A DNA stretch of 64,000 bases from assembly GCA_001600175.1 (NCBI GenBank), contig BCJC01000009.1:434001-498000 (forward strand), given 5' to 3'. This DNA comes from Erythrobasidium yunnanense. Its lineage: Eukaryota > Basidiomycota > Cystobasidiomycetes > Erythrobasidiales > Erythrobasidiaceae. The notes below the pieces were generated by a model. That model was given only the letters and a program-made list of their open reading frames with translations, was not told the DNA's origin and ran no database searches. Both the position numbers and the translations under genes were made by a program. Shown one piece after another: positions 28,803 to 57,548 of this stretch (the first letter of the stretch is position 1; every line of letters begins with the position of its first letter).

Positions 28803-31720
28803 TTACCACCTTCCTGGAGGAGGAGGTTGATTTCCGCCCCATCTGTGCGCATTCAACATCAGCTAGGCAGCTAGATTGCGAGTTTAGCCCTACTTACCCT
28901 TGCCCGCCATAAGGACCGCCTGGAGGACCACCTTGTTGCTGGTGATGTTGCTGATAAGCCTGACCAGGATATCCGCCTCCGTCATGGAGAGGCGGAGGAG
29001 GACCTCCGAACTGAGGCTGCTGATAGCCGCCGTACTGATCAGGCTGCTGGTAGCCTCCTCCAGGAGGACCGTACTGATTTCCGCCATACTGGCCTTGAGG
29101 AGGACCATAGTCTGCCGGAGGCGGAGGCGGGTGGTTCTGGTGCTGATATCCTGCATTGTCGCCGTACTGCTGGACATAGCTCTGGTTGCCTCCATACTGC
29201 TCCTGTCCTCCATAAGAGGGCTGCTGATGTCCGCTTGGTCCGCCATACGAGTCCTGCGCAAGCGGTGGTGCACCTCCGTCATATCCAGGTCCACCCATCT
29301 CCCTGCCAGGGAAAGTCTGATGGAATTGCTGATAGCCAGGTATCTGGTGCAACTGCTGCTGAATGAAGCCAGAAGCTTGTCCTTGCAGCTTCTGAGGTGT
29401 AGGCAAGAAGGATGTATAGCCGCCTGGACCTACGCTTGGCTCCTCTGTAGCGTGCCCCTTCCTGTGGTTCTTGTGGTCGCGTACAGCATCTCTCGTTAGA
29501 GCATTCAAGGTGTAATTCTTGTCCTCGCTGTCGATCCACTTGCGAACGGTATCTTCCATTTCACGCTGAGTAGGGTGATTGCCGCCGAAGAATGGATGAT
29601 ACAGGATATTAAGGAGTTCTTCCACCGTACGGCGGGCATCGACACTATTGCCTGCATCAGCTAGAGTGCTCCCTTGGAAAGAGTTTTGCAAGCCAGCTTA
29701 CCTCGTATCATCCCAAGCCTTGACGACATCTTTCACAATATGCCTAACAATGACTACAGCAACTTGTCCAGCTGGCTCGTTCAGGATACCTGGCGATAGA
29801 GGTCAGCGTAATGTCTCCGCGTTATTGCCCGTCCTAAGCGTACCGTTGAAGTGATCTTTAGCCAATACTATTTGTTGATCCATACATCGATCAGTGGAAG
29901 TGGAATGAACGTTAAGCGAAAAACGTACGGGAATGCGTAGGATGAGCGTAATTCGGATCATTGAATACCCTGAACTGATCCTGCGAGTTCACAACCTGTG
30001 TAGATCCCTGCGACAACACGCCAGTAGCTTGTTGCACTTCATGCACGATGCCAAAGTTAACACAAGATCTCTGCCGCTAAGGCTTAAGTGAAAGCTTACT
30101 GATAGGCTTAAGGTATGGCTCGAGCGTTACGAATACGAAAGTCGCGATAGAATTGCCGATCTTCTCCGTCAAGGCATTCAAGCCGGGAATCTGCAGATAG
30201 TCTATGGATCAGCATACCTATCGTGCAGCGTGAGTACCATGATTTGGTTGATCACCTTCTCCATAGTCCTCTCGATATATTTAGCCACATTGTCTCTGAA
30301 GCTGAGGACTTGCCAGAGGACAGCATGTAGCTCTTGCGGACTCATGTCCATCGGGTCTTTGCCCATACCACCTGCTCTAAGATTGTTCACACCTTCCATC
30401 TCTCTAGACAGGTTCTGGCCGTCTCCTCCTGGGATCTGGAAGAGCATGTCTCGAATAGAGTCGATACCTCGATCTTGTGGCGCGTTGCGGGCTTTCTCCA
30501 TTTCTTTGTTGAGATCGGAAACGGAAGCGGATGAAATGTGGTCGTTGGCTTCGCCGAGCTGTCATAATGTATCAGCAGGCAGTTGCATTGATCGACAACA
30601 CTTCCGACATACAAGCGAGTGAATGAAGTCGCTTCCGCCTGTTTATTAAGCCTCAGATTAAGATGACCTTTCGAGATCGCAAAACCTTACTCACCGAAGG
30701 TTCCCGTCACGATAGGTGGGACGTTATGACCACTAGGGGAGCGGACGGTGACATTCGATCCTACATGGCAGAATACCTGCTGGTAACCCAATTTGAGAAG
30801 TACCAATTCGACGTAATTCGAGTGCGCAGGGAAATCCTCCATAGTATGCAGAGCTTGTCCCAGTAGTCTGTAAGCTTCATACAGAGCATCATGACCACCG
30901 CCTCCTCGTGCGCGTCTTCCGATATCGATACAGCGAAGTAATGTGTCTCGGACAATGCCTTTCGAAGTTGACCAATGGCCGTTCTCGTTAGCGATATAGT
31001 TCTGCCAATCTCGTCAGCCCTGGTATAATAAACACCGAAGGAAGTAGGCTCACTAGCATGCCTGTCCTGGGGTCCACTTCGAGTTCTTGTGGGTCGACGG
31101 GTGGTCGCAGACCAGGGTGTACAGAGCGTGCATCCTTGTTCTCGTTATAGTCTTTCGGGTTGTCAATATGCTCGGTAGGCTGCGACGATAGCAACTAAGT
31201 AATACCACAGGCTGACGGGCTGAAGTCGCTTTACCAGATACACGCCCAATCTGGCTTCTGTCACTTCGAATTCGCCGGTCGCATATCCGTGCGCGAGGAA
31301 GCCTAGAACCATAACGAGGTTGAGGATAGCCTGTCTGCTGAGCTTGCTCAGTCCAGCTACATCCATGGCTTGGCTGTAATCGCGTAGCCAGTTGCCTGGA
31401 AGCAAACGCTTAAGCTCAGCACTGCATAGAGCAGCAGATGCTCGTAGCTCACCAAAGTAGATGCGCTTGATGTCTAGACCTCCGAACTTCTTCGCGAGAA
31501 GGCCTCCAGTGACAGCGCCTAGCAGGCCAGCAGCACCTCCGTTTCCTTTGGCGATTTCTCCCAGAGTGTCGCACAGATCGCCATGTCTGAAGGCTTTCCC
31601 TTCAAGGTACGAGTATGCAGGGATGTTTCCAGCTCCAAAGCACAGCGCAGGGGTAGCAGTGTTCAGAATGATGACGAGGACCAGCAAAGGCACGAGCATG
31701 GACGTTGTTCGAGGAGCCAT
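28803..31720 (-). CDS. Het-C-like secreted protein, copy 2, with G/P/Q/Y prion-like tail
   Basis: Minus-strand paralogue of the gene at 21188. The signal peptide (MLVPLLVLVIILNTATPALC) is followed by FGAGNIPAYSYLEGKAFRHG, then GLDIKRIYFG, NWLRDYSQAMDVAGLSKLS, TEHIDNPKDY, QALHTMEDFPAHSNYVEL, VPPIVTGTFGGSDF and THSLLAKDHFNGILNEPAG. It stays closer to the classical HET-C wording than copy 1 and has fewer introns. For example, KRIYFG and HIDNP are uninterrupted. The 57-nt intron 31396-31452 has no stop and a length divisible by three. The C-terminal tail (about 150 residues) is rich in Gly, Pro, Gln and Tyr (YGGNQ, GGPPPPLHDGGG, QQHHQQQGGPPGG) and finishes in a small last exon coding for WGGNQPPPPGRW. 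The protein looks intact. It is divergent from RCE1 with 292 bp between starts. Confidence 0.9.
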
Positions 31721-51359: not shown

Positions 51360-51902
51360 ATGGGTCGTATGAATCCATGGGAGGCGGACTCGCTCGCAAA
51401 CTTCACGATAGTGCTTGGCGATGGGACTCCGCTTCCCCGCAGACTAAACGCCCCAGGTAGAAACGCCCCTCAGTCTATACAGCTTGCAAACGAACGCAAC
51501 TGGGCCAATAGAAAAGCATGCTCACGTCCTCTCAGCAGGATTGAGCAACCTGAACAGCCATGGAAGATCTGGGAACTGGCATTCCGCAACCTTGATAACG
51601 TACAGATAAATGCTGCCCCTGATGGCTCAGGCCAATGGACGTTAGAGCTCATTCTTGAGAAGGTGCTTGACGAAAGACGCCGACAGCAATGGGAACGCGA
51701 AGACAAAGAATTGGAAGCTTTCAGAGCCCAGCTTGCAAAGCGCAAGCGCTATGCCAAAGACCTGCGAGAGCAAGAAGCAGACACGCGTAAGATATCCATC
51801 AATGCCGATACACAGCTGTCAAAAGCGCCTGTCATGGCTCTGTGTCCGCCTGCGAGAGGATGCGACCCGAGAGGCTCTTCTATAGCCAGCGCGGCTTCAT
51901 AG
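51360..51902 (+). CDS. hypothetical 180-residue protein with basic coiled coil
   Basis: A single open exon from ATG 51360. The family is not recognised. The N-terminal half contains NPWEADSLANFTIVLGDG and a WELAFRNLDNVQ region. The second half is a long charged helix (DERRRQQWEREDKELEAFR then LAKRKRYAKDLREQEAD) likely to form a coiled coil. No signal peptide or membrane segment. It lies between the nitrilase gene and the nitrilase relic. The steady amino-acid make-up and the length argue for a real gene, but no motif confirms it, and an upstream exon is possible. Confidence 0.45.
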   Translation: MGRMNPWEADSLANFTIVLGDGTPLPRRLNAPGRNAPQSIQLANERNWANRKACSRPLSRIEQPEQPWKIWELAFRNLDNVQINAAPDGSGQWTLELILEKVLDERRRQQWEREDKELEAFRAQLAKRKRYAKDLREQEADTRKISINADTQLSKAPVMALCPPARGCDPRGSSIASAAS

Positions 51903-52116
51903 TCCTCCAAGCCAGTCATGCTGTCTCATCGCACTTCTTCAGCCGCCATCAGTCGCAGAATTAGCAACACAGATGAGAATGCTAAGTCGGTACATTCGAG
52001 AAGGGGCAGTGTCGCAAGCTCTGACAAGAGCCTTCTGTAGTGCTTGTACACATACAGAATCAGGCGACTAGCTCTCTTATGTGATAACACCGTCTATGCG
52101 TAATTCGAACGTCAAG

Positions 52117-52311
52117 CTACAAACTATGCCGTCCTTTCGCGACCTTAACTAGACGATGCATCTTTTCGAGCTTTGCGGAGGTAACATAGGTAGAGGCATA
52201 TGTTGCTACAGAAGCGCGAAGCTTGCTGTTGTAGAGTTGTAAAGAACGTCGGCGTTTTCGAGAGCCCGCTGCTTCTGGTAGTGACGATTCTTGCCATTCA
52301 TGATTCTGCAA
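52117..52311 (-). pseudogene. relic of nitrilase exon 1 and leader
   Basis: The stretch is similar, base by base, to 50620-50776 on the same strand. The translated pieces KLRASVATYASTYVTSAKLE and EKMHRLVKVAKG match [21 protein letters not shown] and [12 protein letters not shown] of the intact gene. The leader sequence around TTCTGGTAGTGACGATTC is also shared. The copy stops before the catalytic Glu, and no further nitrilase exons follow, so it cannot encode an enzyme. It probably came from a segmental duplication that included the 5' leader. Confidence 0.72.
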
Positions 52312-52357
52312 ACTTGCAAAGATACCTAAAGCTGAATGACATCTGGCTCAACAAGCG

Positions 52358-53367
52358 ATGCTGAGGATTCTCGCTGTGCTCCCTCGCTTTGCTGCTCGCG
52401 CTAGGCCAACTCTGGTCTATAGGTCTCTGAGCCAAAGCAGCCAATCCTCATTCTGCAACTCTCCGTACGCTCAGAAGCCAGATGCAGAGGATCAAATATC
52501 TACGGAGCTCCAAATGGAGGAGCCTCCATCTATACTTTGGGAGCAGACCGCCCGTGAGGACGCAGAAAGCGACAGCCTGAATGAACCCATTCCTTCGAAC
52601 GTAACTCGTTCGGAATTGTTTACAAGAGTTGAGAGACTCAAGCAGGAATGTATTGAGCTGAGAAAAGACTCACTCAAGATGCAGCATCAGGTGCGTTCCC
52701 CAAATCTTGCATCAAGCATCTTTGCAACAGTTTCGATGGCTAACGACGTACGCTGCAGCTCGAATACGTTACTGAAGGCTATCTGCGATATGCTTTCCGA
52801 TACAATAAGCGCGGACTGTTGGGTGCGCTTCGCGAAGAACGCAAAGCTCAAAGTGTGACTGACGGAGTGTTGTGGTCATCTCCAGAGCACGGTCTATCTA
52901 TGTACGCGAGATACATCATGGACTGGCCCCGAGATCGAGGTTCACAGAGACCGCGTTCTGGGCAAGCGATTCTTGATCACATCTCATCTCAAGCGGAATT
53001 TCTGCAGATGATCGATAACATATCTGCAGAAAGAGACGATGTCAGCGTTGAAGACATCAAGCAGGCAATTTCTTCTCTCTATTCTACTATCACGTCGGAA
53101 CGCTATCTAGGCAATTATAGGGAGCAGCCAATCATCCGCACGGGCTCAAAGGAATCAGGGCACCTGACTCCGGCTACAGCATACGCTCTTGTATCCTTAT
53201 TTACATACTTACAAGAACGAAACGTCTTTCCCATTCGCTGGACTAGGCAGGTTTACGAGAATGACTGGGAAGAGCGCATTGATGCAGACAGGAAACGCAG
53301 AGATAGTGAAAAATGGGCTGATCCAGACGCACGAGATGCAGAGCGAGACTATTACGACAATTATTAA
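52358..53367 (+). CDS. predicted mitochondrial protein of unknown function
   Basis: Exons 52358-52690 and 52759-53367 join in phase 0 to 313 residues. The start MLRILAVLPRFAARARPTLV is Arg-rich and acid-free, a typical mitochondrial presequence. A predicted coiled coil covers RSELFTRVERLKQECIELRK before the intron. The second exon has the motif EGYLRYAFRYNKRGLLGALR followed by MYARYIMDWPRDRG, and ends in a highly charged DARDAERDYYDNY. I do not recognise the family with certainty. It may be a fungal assembly or mitoribosome-associated factor, but that is a guess from the location signal only. Confidence 0.6.
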
Positions 53368-53910
53368 TGAGCAACCGTTTGCCGGCCTTTCGTTGTGGTG
53401 ACCCTGATCATGATGTTGTAGTCAAATGCGCACTGTACACTGCAGTCTTTTTCGATTCCATCCTAGTCTCGCTTACTGTATAGAGCCTTCATTTGTACAT
53501 TCCTCTCTTTACAGCACTCAACTCTACTCGGCTATCCCTAAGCCCGACTTGTGGATAACAACGCAGCTGTTAGCAAGATCACAATAGATCTGCATCACAG
53601 TGAAGAGCTTCTCTTACTGACATTGATAGCAAATGCACAGGCACGAAGGCCAGCGGCCAGATCTCCTTATGCGGCTCGCCAAAGCGACTTCAGCCCTTGC
53701 TGCGCCCAGAAAGCCATCCTGACTCCGCTTGCCCTCCAATCCACTCTTGCGATACGTACTGCGACTCTGCGCTGCTCATCGCTGTAGGTATAGCACCTTC
53801 GACATGCGACCGTACCTCCGGCGTCTGATTAGGGCCTCTTCAATAAGCTGGCACTGCTGTAACGACGATATCCAGTGACATTTCCTTTGGAACACCTACT
53901 CTCGTCCTGA
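53368..53910. other. intergenic
   Basis: 3'UTR and upstream region of the RNase H-like gene A. No gene seen. Confidence 0.4.
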
Positions 53911-54735
53911 ATGGCGTGCATCAACGGCCACGGATCCATCTTTAACCACATTGACAAGTATGGCGAGTTCCACTTTGGCGAGGCAGTCTGCGACGGGTTC
54001 CCCGCGGTGCGGGAAAGAGTTGGCTTCTGTTCAGACTGCAAATTGTCGGCTGCCATGTGCTGCCTTCATAATCGCGGAAGATCCCTAGACACCGCCTGTC
54101 ACGCAACGTCAATCGCTTGTTTTGCTATTTCCTGCAAGCACAACGGGACTCCCTCTGCAGTCGCAGGGTTCGGTATAGCAACCGGATTTGACAAGCATGC
54201 TCAAGAGTGGGCCGTGGCAGTCGACAGACGCTTGGATGAGCGGAGTTGTACGAACAATCGCACCGATCTACTGGCTGCTCTTGAGTGCATTCGGCAATTA
54301 GCACGGAATCACAGACAGCCATTCTTCCCTTGCAACGCTCGTCCACAAGCTTGGGTAGTGGCCAGCGCTCCCGACTATTTAGTCAAGAATTATACTCGCA
54401 ACTTCGCCAAGTGGGAAGCAAAGGGCTGCAAGAAGTGGCGCGGAGGAGAACCTGCCAATCTCGACCTCTGGATTCGCTTGAAGAGCATGATAGTCAAGTA
54501 TGAAGACGAGTGTGGCATCAGAATCGGCTTCTACAAGGTCAAGAAGGAGGACGTGCTGGCTCGCGTCTCCAGACTAGCCAAGACCGCTGTAGAGTCGGCC
54601 GAAAGCCACCTTACACCTCTTACCGCGATCACTTACTACGTTGGGGCTCTCTCTCTCGTGAGCGGCGATGACACGTACCCGGCAAACAAATCCAAGCTTG
54701 CGGATAAGCTCAGCAAAGCAGTACATTGCATATAG
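53911..54735 (+). CDS. RNase H-fold protein, catalytic acids lost, copy A
   Basis: An intronless frame of 274 residues. After an N-terminal part with a CSDC zinc-type pair and HNRGR comes an RNase H1-like fold: FAISCKHNGTPSAVAGFGIA (strands 1 and 2), CTNNRTDLLAALECIRQL (helix A), WVVASAPDYLVKNYTRNF (strand 4 and helix B) and GEPANLDLWIRLKSMI (helix D region). In active RNase H1 these places read DGACxxNG, TNNRAEL, xTDSxYV and a final His/Asp loop. Here the first Asp is Ala, the Glu is Asp, the third Asp is Ala, and the C-terminal GHxG loop is missing. The fold is therefore kept but the two-metal active site is not. This suggests a nucleic-acid-binding or structural role. The C-terminal 60 residues are not recognised. 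Confidence 0.7.
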   Translation: MACINGHGSIFNHIDKYGEFHFGEAVCDGFPAVRERVGFCSDCKLSAAMCCLHNRGRSLDTACHATSIACFAISCKHNGTPSAVAGFGIATGFDKHAQEWAVAVDRRLDERSCTNNRTDLLAALECIRQLARNHRQPFFPCNARPQAWVVASAPDYLVKNYTRNFAKWEAKGCKKWRGGEPANLDLWIRLKSMIVKYEDECGIRIGFYKVKKEDVLARVSRLAKTAVESAESHLTPLTAITYYVGALSLVSGDDTYPANKSKLADKLSKAVHCI

Positions 54736-55715
54736 TCGATCAAAGATCCTCCGCCTCGTCAGAGCCGGTGCAACTTCCAGAGATCTTACCGAATGACAAC
54801 GCAGCAAACACTGTTAGTCTCCTCTCCTGCTCCCTCTCCGCGAATCCGTACATGCGCACAATATTTGTCAGGTCGACATCTGTACGGAAGCTGAGCTGTC
54901 CGGCCGGACTGTGGCTGCTATGGCGCTGCCTTCACCAAGACATACGGCAAGGCCAAAGTGCCCAAACCTTCGTATACACGACTGTCCGCTTTCGAGCCGT
55001 GGCATAGAACAGTCACGAGGCCTTGGAGAAGGGGTGTCGGTGCTGGCATGCATGAATAAGATAAGCTTTGGAAGAAAAGAAAAGCAACGAGATTCATCAA
55101 GCATGGAGATAGTGAGAAGAGTGCGAAGAGACTATGACGCAGTATGGACGTTATCGTCCGTGATAAGTTTGACCTCTTATGTAAAGATTAAATTATGAGC
55201 TAGCTTTTCATAACGATGAGACTGTTGAGCTTTCGTGTACTCATTGGAATCCCTAGTCGTGCTTTCTCTGGTCTTAGGAACCTCTTGGAAATACCAGCAA
55301 CCAATTCTTTACTTATTGGTCAATTCGGCTGCTCGGGTTGATCTTCTGCTTACCGAAGTCGGCCAGGCTTGTTACGGTCTGAGTCTCGCAGCAAGCTGAA
55401 GGTATGCATACAGTTTACAATTGACATTCAAGCTCACGATGGATGGTCGCTCTTACCAGGAACGCGAACGCGAAGGAAACGGTCGGACCTCCGCTAGCAA
55501 GCGCTTCTCTTCCTCTCTTGTATTGGCCTTCCTCCTCTCCTCTTTCCTTCCTCATCGTCTGGCGTTCTTCATCACTGCTACCCCGCCTCTGTGGGTATAT
55601 ACACCGTCAATATGCAAGCATCGCTTCAATCCTCTGACTCGGTCGGACCTCTTGGAGAAGGCCTGGCGTTCATTTCTACGTATTAGCATCAGATCTATCA
55701 TCTACACACATCTAT
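54736..55715. other. intergenic between the RNase H-like genes
   Basis: Nearly 1 kb without a supportable gene. The segment 55600-55715 leads into gene B. Open frames at 54911-55198 and 55421-55774 have no recognisable features. Confidence 0.4.
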
Positions 55716-56411
55716 ATGAGCTGCGTCAGAGGCCACGGAGCCACTCTGAACAACCATGTCGACGACGATCATGAGTTCTGCTTCGTCGGTACCATCCTTC
55801 GCGACTTTCAAGGCGAAGACAAGTTCAGGATGTGCACAGGGTGCAGGGTTCTGCTCGCAGCGCGCGCCATTCACAATCGCGGTCGAAACAAACATCTTGC
55901 CTGCCACGCAACACAAGTTGCCTACTTTGCAACTTCTTGCAGGTACAACGGCAGCCCTTCTGCTATCGCAGGCTTTGGAATAGCTATGGGAGATAATGAA
56001 AATCAGAAGTGGGCCGTTCCGGTGACCTCGCGAGTGGACAAGCAGGATCGCACAAATAATCGAACAGATCTGTTGGCTGCGATGGAGTGCATCCGCAAGA
56101 TGGTCTTCGCCTATACACATCTCTATCGTTCATGCGAAGCACGACCGTCCACATGGATCGTAGCCAGCTCTTCCGACTACGTAGTCAAGAACTATATACA
56201 ACATTTCGACAACTGGCGAGCAAGAGGATGGAGAAAGAGCAACGGAGAACAGCTTGCCAACGCTGACTTGTGGTATAGATTGGATAGCATGGTGGAGAAA
56301 TACCAGGACAAGTACGGAATTAAGATCGGCTTCTACAGAGCGTACGGCGAAGGCAAAGGTGACAGTGCTACCACGCTAGCCCGAGCTGCCGTAGACGCTC
56401 TAGATCGCTAG
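55716..56411 (+). CDS. RNase H-fold protein, catalytic acids lost, copy B
   Basis: An intronless paralogue (231 residues) of the gene at 53911, same strand, 1 kb downstream. Shared wording includes ACHATQVAYFATSCRYNG, PSAIAGFGIA, RTNNRTDLLAAMECIRK, STWIVASSSDYVVKNY and LANADLWYRLDSMVEKY. Copy A has Ala where the RNase H third catalytic Asp is expected and copy B has Ser. Both have Asp in place of the Glu. The zinc-type pair is CTGC. The C terminus is shorter than in copy A. Identity by eye is roughly half, so the duplication is old, yet the same altered positions are kept in both copies. This argues for a selected non-catalytic role rather than decay. Confidence 0.7.
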   Translation: MSCVRGHGATLNNHVDDDHEFCFVGTILRDFQGEDKFRMCTGCRVLLAARAIHNRGRNKHLACHATQVAYFATSCRYNGSPSAIAGFGIAMGDNENQKWAVPVTSRVDKQDRTNNRTDLLAAMECIRKMVFAYTHLYRSCEARPSTWIVASSSDYVVKNYIQHFDNWRARGWRKSNGEQLANADLWYRLDSMVEKYQDKYGIKIGFYRAYGEGKGDSATTLARAAVDALDR

Positions 56412-57548
56412 GCTCGACCTGCTTCTCGTGATCTGGAGAACGCTTCTGGCAGAAAAGAAGGACGGAATCAGACTTTCGGCAAGCTAGCTATACCACTCTC
56501 AATCAGATAGCCAACTCTACATCTTTGCTACTCCACATACTTTACTACAACTCCGCTACGGATCTATCCACTCGCTTGGCCAATAATGCCTTTCCTCGTC
56601 TGCATTCCTTTGTCCAATCTCCACAAAAGGGGACTCTGACGCAAAGGCGGCACTCTATTTGAAGGCCAAGGTCAATCACCTCTCGACCACTTCAACCTTG
56701 GCGATTCATCGTCGGACAATACTTGTGCTAGTCCAATCAAAGCGTCTCCAACTTGACCTCAGGTGAGTGTCCCGTGTTCGCCTCTACAGCATAGCTGAAC
56801 TTGCTGCGACTATAAGAAACGTAGTCTTCACAGTAGCAGATAAATCTCTAACATCGAAGCCAATCAACAGGGACACGTTGACCGGTGGGACAAAGATACC
56901 TTCCAATGCCGACATCCACCACAAGTTCATAACTATAACGCTTAGCAATGAAGAGAAGATTACTCGGACGCTGATCTCTTCCCAGTCTGAGTCCGACGGC
57001 AAGTAGATCCTTGTGAAGGTACACAGCTATCATATCCATGGAGCAGAAAAAAGCAGGCCGTCCATCCTTGGGAGATTTGGCAGCTATCGCTTCACAGTAT
57101 CAAGAATTTCAGGGTCATAGCTTCAGCGGATGGCTCTGGACCAGGGATGCTGGATCTCCTCCTCGACGAGAAATCATGAGCGCCTTAAGGGCATACTTGA
57201 AGGGTCGTAGGGCTTCTGCTACGACAGGTCCTACGTCGACACACTCATCTTCAGCTCACGCTAAGCCAATCAATCCATCTGCATCGACGCGACTCACTCC
57301 GTCTGGGAGCGTAGCATTCACATCTGGCTATGAGAGCAGAGCCCGTATTCGGCCACACATGTGCGTGCGTTCGAGACGCACAATCTTAGCAGAGTCTCGC
57401 AAGTAGGCATTTGTAACGCTGCACATTCCAATGCCATTCTCCGAAGATATCTCGATTCACAGGGATTTCGCTTATTACGTCTGAGGAACATAGCGAGGAA
57501 AGCGCTGCATTGGTCGCAGTATTCGAGTGCGTAAACAACATGCTGCAT
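56412..57548. other. intergenic with a possible short gene at 57038-57405
   Basis: An ATG frame at 57038-57405 (start MEQKKAGRPSLGDLA, Ser/Thr-rich middle) could be a small gene or an exon, but nothing supports it beyond length. Upstream, 56820-57005 has a short open stretch without an ATG. I leave both uncalled. Confidence 0.3.

Follow-up and report, generated by a model that had tools for sequence, protein, structure and literature searches.

Two paralogous genes for ribonuclease (RNase) H-like proteins, P1 and P2, lie in tandem in a stretch of 64,000 nucleotides from the basidiomycete Erythrobasidium yunnanense, referred to below as the window (positions 434001–498000, in the middle of the 879,682-base contig C9; the genome has 20,915,242 bases in 10 contigs). 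P1 (putative pseudo-RNase H paralogue 1; 53911–54735, plus strand, 274 amino acids) and P2 (putative pseudo-RNase H paralogue 2; 55716–56411, plus strand, 231 amino acids) are each encoded by a single uninterrupted ATG-to-stop frame, and 107 out of 232 aligned positions are identical (46%; E 3e-75, three gap positions). Hence, the earlier description of the pair as intronless tandem paralogues holds as far as the tandem paralogy is concerned, while the lack of introns is as read from the open frames alone. Both proteins start with a Cys/His segment (residues 1–62; 53911–54096 in P1, 55716–55901 in P2), followed by an RNase H-like core (residues 63–227, 54097–54591, in P1; residues 63–226, 55902–56393, in P2), and P1 has in addition a C-terminal tail (residues 232–274; 54604–54732) with no counterpart in P2. 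Protein searches of the genome with P1 and with P2 (the latter with E up to 10) yield only these two copies, and a search with residues 1–79 of P2 likewise finds P1 and P2 alone.

Common descent of both proteins with RNase HI is demonstrated at the level of sequence by Pfam, NCBIfam, PHROG, and hhalign comparisons, in agreement with the ancestry proposed in the earlier note. The Pfam RNase_H profile (PF00075; curated cut-off 25.8 bits) matches P2 with 35.6 bits (E 1.2e-8) and P1 with 15.4 bits (E 0.022), that is, under the cut-off, and P1 is counted as homologous because of its identity to P2. In the Pfam RNase_H search of the genome (E up to 1), P2 and two other places are listed and P1 is not; a profile search of this kind can thus overlook copies that have diverged as far as P1. 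The NCBIfam profile of ribonuclease HI (NF001236) matches P2 with E 1.9e-13 (50.2 bits) and P1 with E 8e-6 (25.5 bits), both far under the curated cut-off of 160, and the PHROG RNase H profile matches P2 and P1 with E 1.6e-13 and 3e-11, respectively. Aligned by hhalign to six phage and plasmid RNases HI, the P1/P2 pair has probability 98.8 and E 1.4e-16 (a one-profile search). Among PDB sequences, P2 matches E. coli-type RNase HI with E 9.8e-10 and human RNase H1 with merely 0.32, and the best RNase HI match of P1 has E 0.096. In pairwise alignments, P2 scores 30–44 bits with seven bacterial or phage RNases HI and 18 bits with an incompletely assembled RNase H1 of the same fungus; the respective scores of P1 are 10–18 and 3 bits. 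The RNase H1 wording noted earlier in both copies is found in the common segment TNNRTDLLAA[LM]ECIR, whereas the second motif, NADLW, is exact in P2 and reads NLDLW in P1. Two further matches, AlkZ-like for P1 (Pfam, E 0.038, under the cut-off) and a PHROG holin (E 0.026), were taken as chance.

The catalytic positions were compared with those of eight enzymes: E. coli rnhA, five plasmid or phage RNases HI by annotation, one unannotated plasmid frame, and RNase H1 of the fungus, assembled incompletely from its exons. These were picked for kept motifs and are putatively active; residue numbers follow E. coli RNase HI. The alignment agrees with the replacements listed in the earlier note for the first Asp (D10A in both proteins), the Glu (E48D in both), and the third Asp (D70A in P1, D70S in P2), as well as with the loss of the last His/Asp loop (H124F in both; D134S in P1, D134T in P2). 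Thus, P1 and P2 each keep none of the five catalytic positions, and all five are kept in each of the eight enzymes. A further 49 columns (the start Met excluded) are conserved in six or more of the eight enzymes; of these, P1 keeps 23, and P2, 26, and the difference from the catalytic columns is suggestive only (two-sided Fisher test, p 0.064 and 0.052, respectively). When the counts were repeated without RNase H1 of the fungus, the columns of catalytic and contact residues stayed the same, and 21 (P1) and 23 (P2) out of 42 columns were kept (p 0.056 and 0.0496). DEDD is the active-site set of RNase H according to a passage of PMC9719913, and since this set is absent, we do not file P1 and P2 as RNases H. 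The consulted part of Majorek et al. (PMC3985635) states that the first Asp, in strand 1, is conserved throughout the RNase H-like enzymes and that an incomplete site is often a sign of inactivity; given these statements and the loss of the catalytic set, the sequences make the usual metal-ion catalysis by P1 or P2 very unlikely.

Residues C13, T43, and N100, which we take to be RNA-contact and phosphate-pocket residues, are retained in both proteins in the eight-enzyme alignment. Three hybrid-binding residues of human RNase H1, N151, N182, and Q183, are given together with their Drosophila equivalents in an excerpt of PMC7657459; placed via the Drosophila catalytic numbering of the same excerpt, they correspond to N16, N44, and N45 of the E. 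coli enzyme. All three equivalents are Asn in both P1 and P2 (the third is Gln in human and Asn in Drosophila). The cores are basic, with isoelectric points (pI) of 9.2 (P1) and 9.0 (P2). Counting from human D210, which is presumably the third Asp, places human W221 at W81. This tryptophan of the basic protrusion stacks on the deoxyribose, according to a passage of PMC8960830. Since N16, N44, N45, C13, T43, and N100 are kept, and W81, W90, and Q72 are altered, the RNA-side contacts look better preserved in these sequences than the DNA-side ones.

The N-terminal segment is covered by no Pfam match in either protein. The Cys pair reported there earlier is indeed shared by the two copies (CSDC and CTGC), and the identity extends beyond it: C3, H7, C40, C43, H53, C63, and H64 (P1 numbering) are the same in both. 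C3 and H7 together with C40 and C43 could form a zinc site.

We treat the RNase H fold of the two proteins as supported by sequence and not by structure. Two AlphaFold runs, each with a two-row alignment of P1 and P2, gave models of low confidence, with mean predicted local distance difference test (pLDDT) values of 39.2 for P1 and 43.8 for P2, which are too low for the models to decide the fold or the placement of the Cys and His residues. From residue 99 on, the P1 model, again at low pLDDT, has the order strand–helix–strand–helix–helix–strand–helix, which agrees with RNase H from the third strand onward. The first Foldseek match of P2 is human RNase H1 (E 0.014), with RNase H1 at ranks 1–2, then foamy-virus reverse transcriptase, and then adenylate kinase; that of P1 is E. 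coli RNase HI (E 0.065). The top matches have template modelling (TM) scores of 0.25–0.40, and the Foldseek score also uses sequence.

The history of the pair was assessed from nonsynonymous (dN) and synonymous (dS) distances, calculated by Nei–Gojobori counts between P1 and P2 over 230 codons. For the whole pair, dN is 0.42 and dS is 1.90, so that dN/dS is about 0.22, a rough ratio because dS is near saturation; the bootstrap range of pN/pS, the underlying ratio of proportions, is 0.39–0.56. The core (P1 residues 63–210) has dN 0.32, dS 2.23, and dN/dS of about 0.14; dN and dS are 0.60 and 1.41 in the N-terminal segment (P1 residues 1–62), and 0.79 and 1.99 in the C-terminal piece (P1 residues 211–235). 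In 1000 simple neutral simulations, starting from P2 and applying uniform unselected changes up to the same nucleotide divergence, amino acid identity was 30% on average and 37% at maximum, compared with the observed 47%, and one run out of 1000 stayed free of stops. Decay of P1 and P2 is disfavoured by dN/dS and by these simulations; the dN/dS test that the earlier note had named as a check for decay gave a value well under one. A blastn comparison of 53368–54900 with 54901–57037 (E < 1e-5) found a single match, inside both genes, and no flanking similarity, which fits an old duplication. The same altered sites in both copies are most simply one inherited state, a loss before the duplication and not convergence; parallel loss in the two copies is therefore unneeded. 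Thus, of the earlier argument from parallel retention of altered sites to a selected job, the selection stands, as dN/dS well below one points to purifying selection, and the parallelism does not, as one inherited loss suffices.

Taking all this together, we consider it about an even chance that P1 and P2 are a tandem pseudo-RNase H pair, in which the active site was lost before duplication, which has been kept by purifying selection, and which docks on duplexes that contain RNA but leaves them uncut. A gene of the RNase HI type would have lost its metal-binding active site and then duplicated, both copies being subsequently maintained by purifying selection. Residues at positions 13, 16, 44, and 45 (RNA contact) and 43 and 100 (phosphate pocket), together with the basic core (pI about 9), would mediate docking on the duplex with no cut, and we infer that P1 and P2 would bind a hybrid or an A-form duplex. 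Without W81, hybrid may be less strongly preferred to double-stranded RNA (dsRNA), and the N-terminal Cys/His segment may act as a zinc module, either contributing to binding or bringing in partners. The cellular role of P1 and P2 would be to mark or shield R-loops or dsRNA, or to compete for them. The full form of this proposal, in which the pair are natural readers of hybrid or A-form duplexes that have kept the RNA contacts and the phosphate pocket, have gained a zinc module of Cys and His residues, serve to mark or protect R-loops or dsRNA, and through the loss of W81 have shifted their specificity from DNA:RNA hybrids to RNA-containing duplexes in general, is tentative, and we consider it more likely wrong than right. 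If true, it would suggest that cells, too, use non-cutting RNase H proteins as readers of hybrids or dsRNA, beyond the R-loop probes of the laboratory, and the small size of P1 and P2 makes their predicted binding and lack of cleavage directly testable.

Several observations weigh against the docking proposal. W81, present in all eight comparison enzymes, is Asn in P1 and His in P2; P1 has Cys for W90; both copies have Asp for Q72 and lack G11 and N130. The binding residues that are kept could merely reflect the fold or inheritance. Three out of the four Fisher tests on the catalytic columns fail to reach 0.05, and dS was infinite in 28 out of 500 bootstraps. Both low-confidence AlphaFold models put a helix at residues 59–77, the expected site of the first RNase H strand, the first two RNase H strands are not built in them, and Foldseek gave no match at E 0.001 or better for either protein.

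A related possibility concerns the origin of the pair and is compatible with docking: P1 and P2 may be divergent, perhaps lineage-specific members of a larger family of fungal RNase H-like proteins, in which they form a degenerate branch while the other members cut, and we see the chances for and against it as balanced. The larger family may be CDD cd13934, RNase_H_Dikarya_like, for the name of which our literature search listed no paper. The greater similarity of P2 to the seven bacterial and phage RNases HI (30–44 bits) than to the incomplete RNase H1 of the fungus (18 bits) is consistent with such an origin; however, the searches of the genome found just the two copies and no active representative of this type.

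The main rival to docking is that the RNase H fold is kept purely as a protein-binding surface, a scaffold for which nucleic acid is no longer a ligand; we regard it as a minority possibility. Both the catalytic site and W81 are gone, and stretches lying outside the old active site, such as HNRGR and CHAT, are identical in P1 and P2. Such roles are described for pseudoenzymes in the consulted part of PMC10211241, where Prp8 appears for its pseudodeubiquitinase domain and not for its RNase H domain. Against a pure protein scaffold speaks that six RNA-contact or phosphate-pocket residues and a basic core are kept in both copies.

Improbable, in our view, is a non-canonical nuclease that cuts RNA at a relocated site built of conserved Cys and His residues and the remaining acids (D119 and D155 of P1). 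C3, H7, C40, C43, H53, C63, H64, C75, D119, E125, and D155 (P1 numbering) are indeed identical in both proteins. RNA cutting from a relocated site is a property of the Maelstrom domain; our literature search for this activity listed no paper. Majorek et al. place Maelstrom in the RNase H-like superfamily in the consulted part of PMC3985635. However, the first-strand Asp, conserved in all RNase H-like enzymes according to the same source, is Ala in both P1 and P2, and Asp in place of E48 is the sole acid at any of the canonical catalytic positions.

It is highly improbable that P1 and P2 are pseudogenes in decay, derived from an old duplicate of RNase H or from the RNase H of a retroelement. 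The weak Pfam match of P1 (15.4 bits) and at least five matches to reverse transcriptase PF00078 in the genome could speak for this; however, both frames have stayed open at a dS of about 1.9, with dN/dS of about 0.22 and one in 1000 neutral runs staying open, and none of the five listed PF00078 matches, the reverse transcriptase family to which the search was confined, is on the contig of the pair, which also disfavours a retroelement origin.

Compared with E. coli RNase HI (rnhA; PF00075, NF001236), P1 and P2 share the core wording, the TNNR turn, Y73, W85, N100-x-D-L-W, and L136–A137, and the order of helices and strands from the third strand on matches their weak models. They differ in that the four catalytic carboxylates and His124 are replaced, W81 is lost, a Cys/His segment of about 62 amino acids is added at the N-terminus, and the stretch from the first helix to the fourth strand is longer by about 12 residues. 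With eukaryotic RNase H1, the pair has in common an RNase H-type core and the hybrid-contact residues, and in contrast to it lacks DEDD and the PF01693 hybrid-binding domain (no match in a Pfam search of P1 and P2 at E up to 1); moreover, P1 and P2 are single open frames, whereas the RNase H1 gene of the fungus has several introns.

The earlier note knew of no described system of this kind. This needs to be qualified, as inactive RNase H folds are already known: according to a passage of PMC5603734, Prp8 contains an RNase H domain that is inactive yet binds RNA, and the connection domains of retroviral reverse transcriptases are inactive duplicates. Both are RNase H folds without activity, as proposed for P1 and P2; however, they belong to other families of the superfamily and sit inside large proteins, whereas P1 and P2 are small, free-standing, and tandem, still match RNase HI profiles, and are joined to a Cys/His segment. 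Inactive RNase H probes of the laboratory are usually point mutants. In these engineered mutants binding is kept and cutting is lost, and P1 and P2 would work alike, with the difference that they are natural and that the whole site is replaced; titles and abstract starts describe catalytically inactive RNase H as a laboratory R-loop probe. What differs from these known cases is a small, free-standing, duplicated pair with a Cys/His segment, and a free-standing tandem fungal pair of this kind was not found in our literature search, at the level of titles and abstract starts. In the consulted part of PMC4502367, "ribonuclease H-like" genes appear in a table of transposable elements.

The collections searched for relatives were viral, bacterial, archaeal, phage, and plasmid ones, none of them fungal. 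In viral contigs and in bacterial and archaeal genomes, alignment and single-protein scans confirmed no relatives, which is weak evidence because the peptide patterns were few and idiosyncratic. A tblastn search with P2 matched 113 phage and 126 plasmid records, all at less than 60% identity; among the best 20 matches of each kind, 18 phage and 19 plasmid ones are annotated as ribonuclease H or HI, and the others as a hypothetical protein, as "ribonuclease/exonuclease," or belong to a record without annotation.

Besides the pair, ordinary RNases H seem to be encoded in the genome, as judged from two genes with intact motifs and one listed place for RNase HII. Its RNase H1 gene (C7:1070899–1073973, minus strand; YADGAC, QCAEL, CTDSQY, PGHSG, EIADQLA) has several short introns, three of which were seen, running from GT to AG; a reading resembling the hybrid-binding domain was recognized upstream by eye and is absent from the Pfam search for PF01693. 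A second gene of the RNase H1 type (C2:1508350–1511427) carries the motifs YIDGS, NNKAEL, SDSQY, AHAG, and MADKLA, with a PF01693 match about 1 kb upstream. Three PF01693 matches are listed in the genome, on C2 and C4; the one at C4:2064723–2064932 lies in a frame of 158 amino acids, and the PF00075 search listed nothing on C4. Piwi-domain matches occur at C2:2964178–2965158 and C2:2877600–2878225, some with internal stops (introns or broken copies of Argonaute), and on C1, without stops.

Around the pair, three open frames upstream (51360–53367) have no Pfam match, and a frame of 122 amino acids downstream (57038–57406) has none above the cut-off. Beyond the latter lie a frame with a glutamine amidotransferase domain and, on the minus strand, a gene with the Duc1 domain (PF08588; 57549–58692), read as two overlapping frames and probably split by an intron. 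Elsewhere in the window, a minus-strand frame at 31163–31720 matches a part of Het-C (PF07217, heterokaryon incompatibility).

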